Assembly: GCA_018608565.1 (NCBI GenBank)
Contig: JABAZT010000041.1
Location: 1,820 to 35,346, forward strand
Reading direction: 5' to 3'
DNA from: Candidatus Altimarinota bacterium
GTDB taxonomy: Bacteria > Patescibacteriota > Gracilibacteria > UBA4473
Length of the DNA stretch: 33,527 bases
Position numbers and translations under genes: made by a program. Below the pieces are notes generated by a model. The model saw only the letters and a list, made by a program, of their open reading frames with translations. It had not been told where the DNA came from and made no database searches. The first letter of the stretch is position 1, and each line of letters opens with the position of its first letter. Positions 22,469-31,062 of this stretch are shown piece by piece.

Positions 22469-23959
22469 TTATCTTATCACGTTTTTCTTTTTAAGTAAAT
22501 ACTCTTCTTGGAATCTTGGGCTAATATTTGCCCATAGGATAAAGCTAATAAGGATTATTCCGGTGAAGAGGGCGAAGGATTTGTGAATTTGGATTGTTGG
22601 GAAAAGAGAAAATATGTTCGCGACAGATAGTAAAATCTGAAGACAGAACCATGCAGGAATACTGAGTATTCGGAGTATAATATCAGGGAAAAATCCAAGT
22701 ATTGAGATGAGACTAGAGAAGAGCATGGCGAGTGGGATGATGGGTTCAGTGAGTTGATTTGCTAATAGTCCTCCGGTCGGAAATGCTTCGAAGAAATAGG
22801 TTTGGAGAGGGAATATTGCAATTTGAGAGCTAAGTGTGACGAGGAATATGTTTCGAAATTCAAATCGATTCGTCAGCCATTGGAAGTAGGGAGTTAGTAT
22901 TGGAACAAGAAGAATAATTCCGAGTGTGGCAGCAAAACTAAAGAAGAATCCTAGGTCGGTTTGAACGACTTTTGGATTTATGAGCCCGATGATGACGGCT
23001 GAGAGGAGTACGATATTTCGACTCTCACTAAATCTTCCGTTACTGACGGCAACGCCTACAAGACTTCCCATAATCGCGGCTCGAACCACGGGCGCTTCGC
23101 TTCCGGTCATGAGGACGAAAAACAAGACGATTATTATCGAGCCAAGTATATTGATCCGTGGACCAAATCGTCTAAGTAGGAAATTGCAAAGAATCATAAT
23201 CACGCTGATATTGAATCCTGAAACTACAAGAATATGCATTAACCCTGAGTCTTGAAAGTCTTTTTGGATTGGAGGAGGAAGTTCCTTTTTGACACCTAGG
23301 AGTATTCCCATGGCTATGGTTGAATGTGGAGATGGAAGCAATTGTTCTAGATTTTGTTCAAGCTTGATTCGGATTTGTTCTGCGGTTTTGAGAAAAACCC
23401 AACCTCCATTTTTATCGAGTACTTCTATGTTTGATGGAAATTTGATGATATGGCTTGCACCAAATCGATCGAGGTACTTGATGTAGTTAAAGTCTTTGAA
23501 ATTTCTTGGTTTTGAAAGTTTCCCTTTTATCTCAATAGTATCTCCGTAATGAAGGATGGTGGTTGGTTTTGTGACGAGAAGGATCTTTTGTTTTCCCGTT
23601 ACTGGAGATTGATTAATAGATTTTATATGGAGGTAGTTTCGGTTGTTTTTGATTCGTTGATCTGGAAAACTTGTGATTGTTCCTTGGATAAGGACGTTTT
23701 CACCTTCCAGTGTATTGAGTGGATTTGTTTTGATTCGAGATTGAAAGCCAGAATAGGTGATCGAAAGACTAAGACAGAGACCTATAATACTTACGAGGAA
23801 TATTGTGTTTTTTGAATTTCTTAGTTGGATCGTGGTAATTAGAAATACGGTTGAGATTAACGGTAGTAATGGATTCCAGCTGATCCATTGGGCCGTAATA
23901 AAACCGGTAAGTAGAGAGAGAAGGCTTATTCGAAGAATTGTGCTTTTTGAGCTTTTCAT
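22469..23959 (-). CDS. comEC: ComEC/Rec2 competence channel without metallo-beta-lactamase domain
   Basis: The inner-membrane channel for single-stranded DNA uptake. The 496-aa protein has two N-terminal helices, a DUF4131-like soluble domain (residues ~55-165, with an OB-type strand pattern) and the multi-helix Competence domain, including GLMHILVVSGFNISVIMIL and TGSEAPVVRAAIMG, both characteristic. It ends in a Lys-rich tail right after the last helices and lacks the C-terminal metallo-beta-lactamase-like nuclease domain of full-length ComEC (about 750 aa). Such short forms occur in several phyla. Its promoter region overlaps that of the divergent gene at 23988; TATACC lies 14 bases before its ATG. 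Confidence 0.93.
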   Translation of the reverse strand: MKSSKSTILRISLLSLLTGFITAQWISWNPLLPLISTVFLITTIQLRNSKNTIFLVSIIGLCLSLSITYSGFQSRIKTNPLNTLEGENVLIQGTITSFPDQRIKNNRNYLHIKSINQSPVTGKQKILLVTKPTTILHYGDTIEIKGKLSKPRNFKDFNYIKYLDRFGASHIIKFPSNIEVLDKNGGWVFLKTAEQIRIKLEQNLEQLLPSPHSTIAMGILLGVKKELPPPIQKDFQDSGLMHILVVSGFNISVIMILCNFLLRRFGPRINILGSIIIVLFFVLMTGSEAPVVRAAIMGSLVGVAVSNGRFSESRNIVLLSAVIIGLINPKVVQTDLGFFFSFAATLGIILLVPILTPYFQWLTNRFEFRNIFLVTLSSQIAIFPLQTYFFEAFPTGGLLANQLTEPIIPLAMLFSSLISILGFFPDIILRILSIPAWFCLQILLSVANIFSLFPTIQIHKSFALFTGIILISFILWANISPRFQEEYLLKKKNVIR

Positions 23960-23972
23960 TTTGTTGTTTTTT

Positions 23973-23981
23973 TGGTATAAT
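23973..23981 (+). promoter_or_regulatory. Extended -10 promoter of the four-helix membrane protein gene
   Basis: TGGTATAAT, a perfect extended -10. Expected transcription start is 23988, the A of the second of two adjacent ATGs. On the other strand the same bases read TATACC, the likely -10 of comEC, so the two promoters overlap. Confidence 0.65.
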
Positions 23982-23987
23982 GATATG

Positions 23988-24731
23988 ATGTTTGGACTTT
24001 TAAAACCCTATAATTTTATCTTGGCTTCACTTTCGGCGGTGTTGACCTGGTACTGTGTGAAATATGAATTGATCTATGATATGGGTGTCATTGCTTCAGT
24101 TTTTTTTGTAGGAATTTTCTTTTGCTTTGGGATTATTATGAATACAGCTGATGAACGTCGGTTTCAAGTTTATGATGAAATTGCACTTATAAATGGAAAT
24201 CTTTTAACTATTTGGGATATGGTTCTTATTCAAAATTTGTCGAAAAAAGAGATGGTGCGACTTCAATCTGAATTAATAAAAATTCAACCGCTTATTTCCA
24301 ACTTTCTGAGAGTTTTATGGGATAAGAATTGTGAAAAAGGACTTCATGAGGTAGATATTTCGATGCGAGGAATCATGGATGTTTCTGAAACATTGAGAAA
24401 AGCAGGACTTCCTTCTCCTGAAATTTCACGTATTCATCAGTTTATGGCTCAAAATTATGCTGGATTTGAGCGTTTACTCTCTATTAAAGAACATAGAACG
24501 CCTAAGGTTTTGAGATCTTTTCTGCAGATATCACTTGTATTGTCGATGTTTATTTTGGCTCCAGAGTTTGCTAATTTAGGTAATTTTGGAGTCTTTTTAT
24601 CAGGTTTTGTCTCCCTATTACTTGCCTCATTGATTGAAATTCAAAATAAAATTGAGTATCCGTTTCAGGATGATGTTGATGATGTTAAATTTGAATTTTT
24701 GAGTCGGTTTGAGAAACGATTTGAGTTCTAG
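23988..24731 (+). CDS. Four-helix membrane protein, possibly bestrophin-like
   Basis: A 247-aa protein with two hydrophobic helices near the N-terminus (~8-46), a long helical soluble part, two more helices near ~180-215, and a C-terminal segment EIQNKIEYPFQDDVDDVKF. The helix order and an I-E-x-PF-x-D-x-x-D-like end recall bestrophin and DUF4239-type proteins, which are anion channels or unknown. The likeness is weak and I do not claim the function. I start it at 23988 (23985 is also ATG) because the extended -10 ends at 23981; the open frame runs much further upstream but would include the comEC start. It is followed by metG after 44 bases. Confidence 0.7.
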   Translation: MFGLLKPYNFILASLSAVLTWYCVKYELIYDMGVIASVFFVGIFFCFGIIMNTADERRFQVYDEIALINGNLLTIWDMVLIQNLSKKEMVRLQSELIKIQPLISNFLRVLWDKNCEKGLHEVDISMRGIMDVSETLRKAGLPSPEISRIHQFMAQNYAGFERLLSIKEHRTPKVLRSFLQISLVLSMFILAPEFANLGNFGVFLSGFVSLLLASLIEIQNKIEYPFQDDVDDVKFEFLSRFEKRFEF

Positions 24732-24768: not shown

Positions 24769-24775
24769 CTCTGTG

Positions 24776-26935
24776 ATGATACAGAAAAAATACTTTACGA
24801 CGCCGATTTACTATGTGAATGATGTGCCGCACATCGGACATGCTTATTGTACGTTAGCAACTGATACACTGGCTCGATACTGGCGAAATAAGATTGGTCC
24901 GGATAATGTAAAATTTCTAACAGGAACGGATGAAAATTCACAGAAAACCGTGGATGCTGCTGCTAAGCATGGTAAAGAAATCTATGCCTATCTAGATGAA
25001 ATGGCGGAAAACTGGAAAACGACCTGGGAACAGTGTGGGTTGCAGTTTGATGATTTTATTAGAACGACAGAGGGTCGTCATCATGACAAGGTGGCCGAGA
25101 TGTTTCAACGAATCTATGACAAAGGCGACATCTACAAAGGAAGTTATAAAGGCTTGTATTGCACTGGGTGTGAGACATTTTATAAAGAATCAGAACTGGT
25201 AGATGGAAACTGCCCGGATCACAAAAAACCACCAATGGAATTGGAAGAAGAAAATTATTTTTTCCGACTGAGTAAGTATGAAAAGCCGTTGCTTGAATAC
25301 TATCAAAAAAATCCTGAATTTCTGGTTCCTGAATCAAGAAAGAATGAAATTTTGTCTTTTATACAATCAGGGTTGGAAGATATCTCGGTTTCGAGGGAGA
25401 CGGCTGAGTTTGGGATATCGCTTCCGATGGATGAAAAACACAAAGTCTATGTCTGGTTTGATGCTTTGATCAACTATCTTTCGGCTTTGCCTGATGGAGA
25501 AAATAATGAGTTTTGGAAGGACGCGGATGTGACGCATATTGTTGGAAAAGATATTACTCGGTTTCACTGTGTGATCTGGCCAGCGATGCTCATGAGTGCT
25601 GGGATCAAGCTTCCAGATCAAGTATTTGGTCATGGATATTTTACGGTCGATGGAACGAAGATGAGTAAGTCATTGGGTAATGTGGTCAATCCCTTGGATT
25701 TATCTAAGAAGTTTGGGAATGATGCTTTGCGATCTGGATTGTTGAGTAGTTTTACGTTTGGGAGTGATGGAGACTTTTCAGTGGAACGGTTTCATGATTT
25801 TTATGACTCAAGACTTGCGGGAGGAATCGGAAATCTTTTTAACCGAGTGATTGTTCTGATTAACAAATTTTTAGATGGAAATAAACCAGAAATACAAAGA
25901 CCAAGAAATTATACTGGGCGGAGTGGTTCTGCGGAAGAGTTTGTAGATTTTCAGTTGCATGAGGGATTGTTTGTAAATTTAGAAAGCTATCAGTTGTATT
26001 CGGCTTATAATCATTTGTTTGAGTTGGTGGACAAAGCCAATGAGCTGATGAACGAAACTGAGGTTTGGAAACTGGTGAAAGAGGATGAAGAAAAGGCTAA
26101 AATTGTGTTTGGGGAACTGCTGGCGTACCTAGAGGTTATTATGCTCATTTCTTGCACATTGCTTCCTGAGACTGCAGGGAAAATGCAACAGATGCTTGGA
26201 GATGAAAAAAAGGCTGGAAAAGCTCAAATCCTATTTCCTCAGGTAGATCGAACCGTAGTGGAGGAAAAAGAAACACCAAGAAGTACGGTCAAATTTACGG
26301 TGAATCCAAAACTGATCGAACAAGGATATCAGGTCAAAGCGGCGCTGATTACGATTCCTAAGATTAGCAAGAAACAGTCCAAGCCATTTCGAGCCCATGC
26401 GACAGAAGTTTTAGGGAATCTAGATATTGATGCAGCGCTCAATGCTGAGATCATCCAAGTTGCCAACAAATCCTATGCTGACGCCGAGGTAGATGGAAAA
26501 CATCCTGCGGTGCATTTATTAGAAATCCTTAAAAAATCAGGGAAACTTCCAAATATTAACAATGTAGTCGATGCCTATAACTTGGCCTCTGTGGACTATC
26601 AGATCTCATTTGGGGTGCATGATATAGAGAAGATTGATGGTGATGTGAAGCTTGATTTTACGACTGGTTCAGAGGACTATACGCCACTGGGAAGTAAGGA
26701 AAAAGTGAAGGTGAATAAGGATGAGTATGCGTTTATGGACGGATCACAAATCCTCTGCCGGATGGACTGTAAACAGTGTGAGAAAACTAAAATAACGATG
26801 CAGACAAAACATATACTGATCTATGCACAGGGAAATAGTGCGGTGGATGCGTTGTATCTCGAAAATGGACTTGATGAAGCGATTGAGAACTTGGTAGAGT
26901 ATTGTGGGGGGGGGCATGTTGAGAGGGTGATCTAA
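24776..26935 (+). CDS. metG: Methionyl-tRNA synthetase with C-terminal B3/4 editing-type domain
   Basis: Charges tRNA-Met with methionine. The 719-aa protein has the class I catalytic core with PHIGH (18-22) and KMSKS (295-299), a zinc-type knuckle C129-x2-C132 with C146-x2-H149 (one Cys replaced by His), and the helical anticodon-binding domain to about 495. The usual C-terminal EMAP/Trbp111 tRNA-binding domain is absent. Residues ~500-719 form a B3/4 domain, the family of the PheRS beta-chain editing site and of stand-alone proteins: LPNINNVVDAYNLASV, FGVHDIEKIDGDVKL, DGSQILCRMD, TKITMQTKHILI. I know of no characterised MetRS of this build. Start is ATG 24776; GTG 24773 is in frame. A run of nine G near the end (about 26906) is a possible assembly-error site but the frame is consistent. 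Confidence 0.96.
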   Translation: MIQKKYFTTPIYYVNDVPHIGHAYCTLATDTLARYWRNKIGPDNVKFLTGTDENSQKTVDAAAKHGKEIYAYLDEMAENWKTTWEQCGLQFDDFIRTTEGRHHDKVAEMFQRIYDKGDIYKGSYKGLYCTGCETFYKESELVDGNCPDHKKPPMELEEENYFFRLSKYEKPLLEYYQKNPEFLVPESRKNEILSFIQSGLEDISVSRETAEFGISLPMDEKHKVYVWFDALINYLSALPDGENNEFWKDADVTHIVGKDITRFHCVIWPAMLMSAGIKLPDQVFGHGYFTVDGTKMSKSLGNVVNPLDLSKKFGNDALRSGLLSSFTFGSDGDFSVERFHDFYDSRLAGGIGNLFNRVIVLINKFLDGNKPEIQRPRNYTGRSGSAEEFVDFQLHEGLFVNLESYQLYSAYNHLFELVDKANELMNETEVWKLVKEDEEKAKIVFGELLAYLEVIMLISCTLLPETAGKMQQMLGDEKKAGKAQILFPQVDRTVVEEKETPRSTVKFTVNPKLIEQGYQVKAALITIPKISKKQSKPFRAHATEVLGNLDIDAALNAEIIQVANKSYADAEVDGKHPAVHLLEILKKSGKLPNINNVVDAYNLASVDYQISFGVHDIEKIDGDVKLDFTTGSEDYTPLGSKEKVKVNKDEYAFMDGSQILCRMDCKQCEKTKITMQTKHILIYAQGNSAVDALYLENGLDEAIENLVEYCGGGHVERVI

Positions 26936-26991
26936 GTTGTTTTTTTTGTATTGTGTTTGATTTTTTTAAGAACAAGTATAAGTTTTTACTT

Positions 26992-27234
26992 ATGAATCGA
27001 TTTGAAATTGAGGTTACCGGGGATGAAACTATGGATGAACTCGCTACAAAATTAGTCCCTGTTGAAGAGATTATGATGAGTGAAAAAGGAGCAGTACTAC
27101 AGTCAAGGAATCTTTTTGCCCAAGGCATAGCACATGTTATATCTCAAGAGGGGGGGAATATTATAATTACTCCTGATTGGAACTTAGAAGCTACTTATCA
27201 ACAACCACTTCCTGCTGTTGCTCTTGCATCATAA
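26992..27234 (+). CDS. Small protein of unknown function
   Basis: An 80-aa acidic soluble protein I do not recognise: MNRFEIEVTGDETMDELATK at the start and a Gly/Ile-rich middle (VISQEGGNIIITPDW). TATAAG ends ten bases before the ATG, so the leader would be very short; upstream in-frame ATG 26953 is an alternative. Its last 44 bases overlap the end of recJ on the other strand. Real gene status is moderately supported by codon use and the promoter-like box. Confidence 0.55.
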   Translation: MNRFEIEVTGDETMDELATKLVPVEEIMMSEKGAVLQSRNLFAQGIAHVISQEGGNIIITPDWNLEATYQQPLPAVALAS

Positions 27235-28929: not shown

Positions 28930-29832
28930 ATGAAAGTACTGGTCTATGAATATCGATGGTGTGATGACGATCCGATGAAGTCCAAATTTCAGGCTTCTGC
29001 GGGAGGGCGGTATGGTGAAAAAATAATAGGAATTGGGGATGATATTTCGGTGGAGGTTTGTAGTGATGTTCGTTGTGGTGGGTCTATGAGAGACAATGAG
29101 TGGAAGCCTTGTTCGGTTGGATCTATGGGCCGAAAAAAATGTGAAACGTGTCGAGCTCGTGAAGGGCAGTTTGTTTTTACAAGTTTTGATGGATTTAATA
29201 CTGATAATCTTACGCAGGATGATTTGGCACGAATTGATGGGCCGCATTTGGTCTATTTAGCCATGTTTGAAAGAGATCTGGTGAAAGTAGGGGTTTGTAA
29301 AAAAGATCGAAAAGTGCTTCGACAGGTAGAGCAAGGATCTCATGCAACGTTGTTTTTTGCGGAAACCGATAATGGAATCCTTGCCCGGCAGATAGAGACG
29401 ACGATGAGAAAATCTGGTATTGCGGATAAGATTCAGGCGAATAAAAAAAAGAATGCGCTCACCCCTGAGTTGACGGCGGATGAGTGCGAGTCAATTCTTC
29501 GTGAAAATTTTGATCACTATGTCGTAGCGCTGGATCATTTTCCAAATCTCAAAAAATTTGTGTTGGAGACTCCAGAGTTTTGTATGTGGGAAGATTTTTA
29601 TGGATTGGATTATTTGAGGCAAAATGAAAAACCATTTCATAGTATCAAACTTGATGTTGGAGAGATGCTTTCGGGAAGAATTGTGACGCGGAAAGGGGCT
29701 TTCTTTGTGGTAGAAACTCCAGAGGAACTCGTTTCTGTGAATGCAAAAGATCTAGTGGGGAGAGATGTGGAATATGAATTTCAGCCTTCAGGTTTGAAGC
29801 TGAATCAGGCGGTACAGAATAGCTTGTTCTAG
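28930..29832 (+). CDS. DUF2797 family protein
   Basis: A 300-aa protein matching the DUF2797 family, function unknown. The N-terminal ~80 residues have cysteines spaced like the family's zinc region (CSDVRCGG, KPC, KKCETC). The core GPHLVYLAMFERDLVKVGV, then QVEQGSHATLFFAET, fits the conserved middle that resembles a GIY-YIG-type fold. Whether it has nuclease activity is not known. It diverges from recJ and is followed by an unknown gene on the same strand. Confidence 0.78.
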   Translation: MKVLVYEYRWCDDDPMKSKFQASAGGRYGEKIIGIGDDISVEVCSDVRCGGSMRDNEWKPCSVGSMGRKKCETCRAREGQFVFTSFDGFNTDNLTQDDLARIDGPHLVYLAMFERDLVKVGVCKKDRKVLRQVEQGSHATLFFAETDNGILARQIETTMRKSGIADKIQANKKKNALTPELTADECESILRENFDHYVVALDHFPNLKKFVLETPEFCMWEDFYGLDYLRQNEKPFHSIKLDVGEMLSGRIVTRKGAFFVVETPEELVSVNAKDLVGRDVEYEFQPSGLKLNQAVQNSLF

Positions 29833-29870
29833 ATTCTTTACTTTTTTTGATTATTACTTACTTTCCATTT

Positions 29871-30500
29871 ATGGTGCTTTCTTTTTCTGAACCTTGTTTT
29901 TCTGAACAATCTGATTTTTTGAATCGTATTGTTGAAATTGTTTGGGAGATAGAGGCGATAGAACAACAAATGGTGGATCATGACATTCAACAGGATTGTG
30001 TTTTGGGACATGAAAATATGGACATTGCTCACTCAGTCCGTTTTAAAGCTCGATTTATTTGTGTTGATTGTCCTAAAGAAAGACAAGATCTTCGTCTGGG
30101 ATGTGCCCATTCTGATCGTCTGAGGAAGATGCTTATAGATGCTTATAGATTTTTGATGGAACATGATGTTTCACAATTTATTGATTTAAGTGCTGGTTTT
30201 TTGGAGGGATTCGTAGAAGAAATTGAAAAGATAGGAGAAGATATAAAAGGATGGGATAAAGAAATTCGAACTATTAATTATTGTATTAGTCAGATTGAAT
30301 ATCCCGATTGGGCCGTTGGCGACACGATTAATCTTGTGGTTGATCCTTCAGATTTTCCAAAAGAGGTAGAATCGTTACAACGAATGAAATTTAGTATAGA
30401 AAATTCTCATCAAAATTCGGTTGATCGCTTGATGGCAATTAAAGATAAACTTAAGATTTTACTTAGTGATGTTTTTGAAATGAGTTCAAGTTTAACCTAA
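29871..30500 (+). CDS. Soluble helical protein of unknown function with Cys/His motif
   Basis: A 209-aa protein I do not recognise. A cysteine/histidine-containing region at ~42-85 (DCVLGHENMDIAH, FICVDCPKERQDLRLGCAH) could bind metal, and a long helical region follows with heptad-like spacing. No membrane helix. I use ATG 29871; a TTG at 29847 in frame would add eight hydrophobic residues and is less likely. It lies 38 bases after the DUF2797 gene and has an AT-rich composition. Confidence 0.6.
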   Translation: MVLSFSEPCFSEQSDFLNRIVEIVWEIEAIEQQMVDHDIQQDCVLGHENMDIAHSVRFKARFICVDCPKERQDLRLGCAHSDRLRKMLIDAYRFLMEHDVSQFIDLSAGFLEGFVEEIEKIGEDIKGWDKEIRTINYCISQIEYPDWAVGDTINLVVDPSDFPKEVESLQRMKFSIENSHQNSVDRLMAIKDKLKILLSDVFEMSSSLT

Positions 30501-30515
30501 CTATTTACATCTTCC

Positions 30516-30542
30516 TTGATTTGTGTTAAAATTGATTATAAT
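30516..30542 (+). promoter_or_regulatory. Promoter of the four-helix membrane protein at 30562
   Basis: TTGATT (30516-30521), a 15-base spacer and perfect TATAAT (30537-30542). The expected start near 30549 gives a leader of about 13 bases. Confidence 0.5.
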
Positions 30543-30561
30543 TTTTTATATTCACTCTATT

Positions 30562-31062
30562 ATGAGTTCTCTTTTTTCAAGCTTGAGTCCGTTGACTATT
30601 GTTTTTTATGTATTGAGTATTTTGGCATTAATTGAGGCTCATGTCTATTGGCGCATGTCTATAAATAAAAGGTCTACCACAAAGAAAATTACGGCCATGA
30701 GTACTATTATTACTATTTTAATTATTCCAATTTTAGCGACTATTGTTGTTGGAATTATATTAGGGATTCCACTAGCTTTCTTAGTTTCTAATGCGTTGGT
30801 TTCTGGTTTGATAGTTTTGGTTGGGACTTATGGATTGTTGTTTTATATGTTTTCTTCTATTGAGCTTAAAAAATACACAGAAATTTCGGCTAAAGATAAA
30901 AAAATTATTGCTGGAGTAACTATTGCTATTCTTTTTTTGAGTAGTGTTCTATGGCAGATTGCAGAACACGTGGGATTGAATTCAATAGAAATAGAGTCAA
31001 TTGAGTTAGGGAGTTTAGTTGAAGAATCGAAAATTGATTCAGCTGTTGAGGTTGGGGAATAA
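30562..31062 (+). CDS. Integral membrane protein of unknown function
   Basis: A 166-aa protein with about four hydrophobic helices (~10-28, 44-68, 72-94, 108-126) and an acidic C-terminal tail rich in Glu and Ser (EIESIELGSLVEESK). I do not recognise it. I start at ATG 30562 because TATAAT lies at 30537-30542; an in-frame upstream start at 30523 would precede the promoter. The CorA-type gene follows after 44 bases on the same strand. Confidence 0.65.
   Translation: MSSLFSSLSPLTIVFYVLSILALIEAHVYWRMSINKRSTTKKITAMSTIITILIIPILATIVVGIILGIPLAFLVSNALVSGLIVLVGTYGLLFYMFSSIELKKYTEISAKDKKIIAGVTIAILFLSSVLWQIAEHVGLNSIEIESIELGSLVEESKIDSAVEVGE

Follow-up and report, generated by a model that had tools for sequence, protein, structure and literature searches.

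A B3/4 domain fused to methionyl-tRNA synthetase in Gracilibacteria: a recurrent architecture and candidate for post-transfer editing of tRNAMet

The window, i.e. the whole stretch of 33,527 nucleotides that was analysed, stems from a genome of the Gracilibacteria class that is 98.9% complete. It contains a single open frame, located on a 62.8-kb contig, in which a methionyl-tRNA synthetase (MetRS) is followed by a B3/4 domain (Table 1). This fusion is the sole MetRS of its genome, and the one other B3/4 protein encoded there is PheT. A DUF2797 protein is encoded two genes downstream of the MetRS gene (window 28930-29832), and a gene for a DHH/RecJ-type exonuclease lies between the two on the opposite strand. 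ORFs without a Pfam match are found around the MetRS gene at window positions 23757-24731, 26953-27234, 29847-30500 and 30523-31062.

Table 1. Position of the MetRS-B3/4 fusion and its parts in the window.
Feature	Position	Strand	Remarks
MetRS-B3/4 fusion ORF	24773..26935	+	720 aa; GTG at 24773; ATG at 24776 (codon 2) equally possible as start
MetRS body, catalytic and anticodon-binding domains	24776..26230	+	residues 2-486
Linker joining the MetRS body to the B3/4 domain	26231..26290	+	residues 487-506; low confidence, pLDDT < 50
Complete B3/4 domain including N-terminal helical part	26291..26932	+	residues 507-720
Pfam PF03483 match	26513..26908	+	residues 581-712
LPNINNVVDAYN motif, invariant B3/4 core	26546..26581	+	residues 592-603
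SFGVHD	26606..26623	+	residues 612-617; H616 is a Met-type signature residue
ILCRMDCKQCEKTK	26750..26791	+	residues 660-673; D665 and Q668 are Met-type signature residues
LIYAQGN	26816..26836	+	residues 682-688; Y684 and Q686 are Met-type signature residues

The MetRS profile TIGR00398 matched the fusion ORF with 445 bits (cut-off 336), the MetRS part spanning residues 3-485. Alignment with E. coli MetRS revealed that the class I signatures HIGH (H20, H23) and KMSKS (296-300), the Met pocket (Y14, W228, Y235, D260, H265) and the residues reading the CAU anticodon (N354, R358, W432) are all kept. Judged by profile, signatures, pocket and anticodon residues, the body of the fusion ORF is assigned as a methionyl-tRNA synthetase.

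The C-terminal part was matched by the Pfam family B3_4 with 76.7 bits (2e-21; cut-off 29.3). An AlphaFold model of residues 495-720, calculated from an input alignment of 18 relatives, reached a pLDDT of 90.8 and a pTM of 0.87, the ordered fold starting near residue 507. When this model was compared to the PDB with Foldseek, the best matches were structures of CtdA (9f7e, 9mkl; TM 0.73-0.79, E 3.5e-15), followed by many PheRS beta subunits (TM about 0.6, E about 1e-9). The residues P593, I595, N596, V599, D600, N603, G614 and D617 of the invariant B3/4 core are kept. An equivalence of H616 to H261 of PheRS was considered and dropped, as H616 lies two positions off the PheRS histidine in the profile alignment. 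The full PheT architecture of the PheRS beta subunit is not present in the fusion; the B3/4 part alone matches, and PheT is encoded separately in the genome. In the model of the full-length protein, confidence is too low to place the domain relative to the CCA end of a tRNA. Residues 507-720 are a real and complete B3/4 domain. The sequence-only reading had assigned the last ~220 residues of the MetRS (26273-26932, residues 501-720) to B3/4, and this is borne out by the above-cut-off B3_4 match and the CtdA/PheRS-like fold, except that the ordered fold begins at about residue 507. Two of the checks which that reading had named, the domain search and the structure prediction with comparison to PheRS B3/4, came out positive.

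The same reading had further placed the B3/4 domain in the position of a usual C-terminal tRNA-binding domain, and this part has to be revised. MetRSs of the same family terminate at 475-539 aa without any extension, and none of 19 same-family genomes contains a match to the domain. Furthermore, in the Woesearchaeota protein of contig L031 the B3/4 domain is located between the anticodon domain and an EMAP tRNA-binding domain, which is retained. Replacement of an EMAP tRNA-binding domain is ruled out by the short same-family MetRSs and the EMAP-bearing archaeal fusions. The B3/4 domain was added onto a short MetRS that had no C-terminal tRNA-binding domain.

The distribution of the architecture was assessed in several sets of genomes. 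MetRS-B3/4 was found in 15 genomes of Patescibacteria and Woesearchaeota-class archaea. In the class of the window, which by named records includes Gracilibacteria and Peregrinibacteria, 73 of 353 genomes contain a non-PheT B3/4 match, either as a stand-alone protein or fused to MetRS, ArgRS, class I LysRS, class II LysRS or TyrRS. A sample of the phylum, in which 25 of 380 genomes matched at E 1e-20 or better, added a fusion to MetRS in G547, several to LysRS of either class, and others to ArgRS and TyrRS. In the class of the Woesearchaeota record G696, 21 of 281 genomes matched and six of these contributed additional MetRS fusions; two Chloroflexi carry TyrRS fusions (L197:2613-4619 and L188, both with N-terminal B3/4). 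The domain is N-terminal in the ArgRS and TyrRS fusions and C-terminal in those of LysRS. Viral copies could not be confirmed, the annotated phages yielding weak partial matches. Thus, the fusion is not unique; a studied MetRS carrying the domain did not turn up. We found no description of a B3/4-MetRS fusion in the open-access literature, where the term 'B3/4' itself cannot be matched. As far as could be checked, both parts are of known kinds, and their combination and its spread are undescribed.

One 1119-aa ORF combines class II LysRS, an HD domain, B3/4 and DUF2000 (L191:1091-4447, G609), and another a class II LysRS with EMAP tRNA_bind and B3/4 (L194:3302-6043, G623). The genome G033 encodes three non-PheT B3/4 proteins (L012, L004, L014), namely a MetRS-fused, a stand-alone Met-type and a CtdA-like one. 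In ArgRSs with N-terminal B3/4 from five loci (L007, L008, L010, L112, L124) the key residues are CtdA-like, making these proteins candidates for canavanine editing in cis. Three members of the window's class (L064, L065, L126 from G125, G140, G163) read TGA as a residue, and their B3/4 frames open with code 25. In G027, a stand-alone Met-type gene is found among queuosine-like genes (queC, queE and queF-like by motif; L021:4295-6372).

Comparison of the domains in the numbering of the window's protein revealed residues that vary with the linked synthetase. These were defined in one class, before the wider surveys were carried out, and the Met-type set of 19 sequences comprises stand-alone as well as fused members. 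Position 616 is H in 19/19 Met-type domains, F in all six of the class I LysRS group, Y in 4/4 TyrRS-linked domains, and E in 13 of 19 ArgRS-linked domains and both CtdA sequences. Position 668 is Q throughout the Met-type set (19/19), D in 5/6 of the class I LysRS group and E in 17/19 ArgRS-linked domains; position 686 is again Q in 19/19 Met-type sequences, D in the class I LysRS group and E in the ArgRS- and TyrRS-linked domains. The seven MetRS fusions found later (L190, L199, L200, L202, L203, L204, L205) all contain H616, D665 and Q668, with Q at position 686 in six and E in one. Lys-linked domains found later mostly have F or Y, D and D. Exceptions are the Lys-linked L215 and the TyrRS-linked domains outside the class, which follow no clean pattern. 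The residue code is accordingly solid for Met and Arg, but less strict for Tyr. From their conservation, we infer that the signature residues line the pocket.

When 79 B3/4 domains were placed in a tree, every MetRS-linked one known at that stage fell into a single clade (100/99), together with stand-alone proteins that stem from DPANN archaea, Chloroflexi and Gracilibacteria. The ArgRS, class I LysRS and TyrRS fusions form groups of their own, and CtdA is located elsewhere. Fusions within the Met-type clade are exclusively to MetRS, and no MetRS fusion lies outside it. The Met-linked residues are inherited within one clade, which was joined to MetRS alone, and are not independent inventions. 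Within the clade, MetRS-linked and stand-alone domains are interleaved, requiring at least four changes between the fused and the free state. For the clade tests, the groups were named after the first tree had been seen. A single clade of all MetRS-linked B3/4 domains is disfavoured with 15 fusions (p 0.017); an earlier test with eight fusions had not rejected it (p 0.11). Forcing the bacterial fused MetRS bodies together costs 302 log units (AU p 1.7e-7), because the window's MetRS groups with the short enzymes of its own family, whereas the f15 fusions nest elsewhere. A single origin of all MetRS-B3/4 proteins is therefore strongly rejected by the MetRS bodies, in addition to the p of 0.017 for the B3/4 domains. 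Together, the interleaved domains and the non-monophyletic MetRS bodies indicate that fusions, losses or transfers of the domain occurred several times. On the archaeal contig L032, a stand-alone B3/4 gene begins on the stop codon of MetRS (ATGA overlap), and two relatives carry the B3/4 domain fused at this locus. Most stand-alone Met-type members do not adjoin Met genes. Three genomes of the Woesearchaeota class (L222, L203, L223 from G785, G922, G899) contain bacterial-type MetRS-B3/4 with 41-51% identity to the window's MetRS. The presence of such bacterial-type proteins in archaeal genomes suggests transfer between Patescibacteria and archaea. Identity and fold of the domain, its conservation and the repeated link of one B3/4 subtype with MetRS are direct observations.

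CtdA is the nearest solved homologue of the MetRS-linked domain and its nearest relative with a known function, being a proven canavanyl-tRNAArg deacylase (PMC10018355). Owing to this homology, the domain of MetRS is predicted to edit after transfer, at a site to which the CCA end of tRNAMet gains access. With a probability of roughly 0.7, we propose that it edits in cis, after transfer, tRNAMet that has been mischarged by MetRS, with homocysteine as the first candidate substrate; deacylase activity, tRNA specificity and substrate are here inferred. According to this proposal, the MetRS body would charge tRNAMet, at times with a look-alike of Met, and the acceptor (CCA) end of the mischarged tRNA would swing to the B3/4 pocket. 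There, the set H616/D665/Q668/Y684/Q686 would recognise a feature of the wrong side chain, and the ester bond would be hydrolysed. The acidic residues of the Arg and Lys types may read charged side chains, and the neutral polar ones of the Met type fit an uncharged polar look-alike of Met. Homocysteine that has escaped the built-in cyclisation editing would be the first candidate, other Met analogues being possible.

The choice of homocysteine is guided by metabolism in this one genome. An SAH hydrolase, an enzyme that makes homocysteine, is present. In the same 98.9% complete genome, searches for the MetE catalytic domain (PF01717), the MetH/BHMT homocysteine methyltransferase domain (PF02574) and LuxS gave no match. 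Homocysteine is the leading candidate since SAH hydrolase is present and a homocysteine methyltransferase was not detected. Downstream of a stand-alone Met-type gene in G927 lie, in the same direction, a methyltransferase gene and a MetE-like gene. A search for riboswitches near the stand-alone genes as a clue to the substrate found none. The residues for pre-transfer editing of homocysteine, among them D260, equivalent to D296 of E. coli MetRS, are intact in the window's MetRS. As the cyclisation-editing residues are also intact in most other MetRS-B3/4 proteins, homocysteine editing by B3/4 could be redundant with that in the synthetic site. In the fusion of G547 (L190:2246-4681), the key synthetic-site Asp is replaced by Gly, and for this reason the extra domain might be the sole defence against homocysteine there.

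The sequence-only reading had left two roles side by side. The clearing of wrongly charged tRNAMet is favoured because one B3/4 subtype joined MetRS repeatedly and other subtypes joined ArgRS, LysRS and TyrRS. In the other role, the domain would remove Met from non-cognate tRNAs mischarged by MetRS and would read the tRNA, not the amino acid. Mis-methionylation of other tRNAs by MetRS is known (reviewed in PMC11415595), but the pocket would have to accept Met and yet spare the Met-tRNAMet made on the same polypeptide. Moreover, the subtype differences at conserved pocket-type positions track the synthetase, i.e. the amino acid, and the B3/4 proteins of known function, PheRS and CtdA, select by amino acid, so that we regard this role as improbable. 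We consider it just as doubtful that the domain is a non-catalytic appendage from which a short MetRS gains only stability or affinity for tRNA. The MetRSs of the family do lack a C-terminal tRNA-binding domain, and in PheRS the B3/4 fold adjoins the tRNA. However, sister MetRSs manage without the domain, archaeal forms carry B3/4 despite their EMAP tRNA-binding domain, and both the core and the subtype-specific residues are conserved in 19/19 sequences, stand-alone and fused, arguing against a mere structural role.

Less probable still is an incidental fusion whose domain edits a tRNA not charged by MetRS, e.g. canavanyl-tRNAArg. CtdA as the nearest solved homologue would speak for this, but CtdA and the Arg-linked domains belong to a different clade and are mostly acidic at positions 616, 668 and 686, and the Met-type clade has been linked separately to MetRS several times and to no other synthetase. 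That the fusion is an assembly chimaera or a decaying one-off, as its isolated position in its family (0/19 same-family genomes matched) might suggest, is hardly credible in view of one open frame on a 62.8-kb contig, the occurrence of the architecture in 14 further genomes and the fully conserved signature.

Proofreading within the synthetic site is classically exemplified by MetRS, and ArgRS and TyrRS are generally described as having no separate domain for editing. We lean towards the broader view that B3/4 is an interchangeable proofreading module which, in pocket variants specific for different amino acids, was attached time and again to MetRS, ArgRS, both classes of LysRS and TyrRS in Patescibacteria, Woesearchaeota-class archaea and Chloroflexi. 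If true, post-transfer editing in cis would occur in synthetases to most of which textbooks deny it, and the stand-alone Met-type proteins would be a new trans-editing family for tRNAMet. A recurring editing domain on MetRS, with variants on four other synthetases, would change the known distribution of editing among synthetases. It would also provide a residue code from which the substrates of B3/4 proteins awaiting characterisation could be predicted, and reveal which errors in amino acids are a danger to small genomes that depend on scavenging.

When compared with canonical bacterial MetRS (PRK12267 / TIGR00398), MetRS-B3/4 shares the catalytic and anticodon domains, the key residues of which are intact; unlike MetRS-B3/4, the canonical enzyme has no separate editing domain, its editing being assigned to the catalytic site (PMC7373986). 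In a review of mistranslation, a PheRS-related deacylase is known only as CtdA (PMC11415595). CtdA (PDB 9f7e, 9mkl) and the domain of MetRS have in common the whole-domain B3/4 fold, the invariant core motifs and a similar length. However, CtdA is a stand-alone protein acting on tRNAArg, shows only about 18-20% identity to the fused domain and belongs to a separate clade; with E616, N665 and E686 in CtdA as opposed to H, D and Q in the Met type, the MetRS domain falls outside CtdA by residues as well as by clade. The B3/4 domain of the PheRS beta subunit (TIGR00472) has a homologous fold and is likewise an editing module inside a synthetase, but it is more distant (TM about 0.6, about 15% identity), and synthetase class and domain order differ from those of MetRS-B3/4. 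The fusions to ArgRS, LysRS of both classes and TyrRS that occur in these lineages contain the same module in other subtypes, with other residues at positions 616, 668, 684 and 686. A precedent for grafting the editing domain of one synthetase onto another is provided by SepRS with its N-terminal ThrRS-type serine-editing domain (PMC5424206), although both editing fold and synthetase are unrelated to those of MetRS-B3/4.
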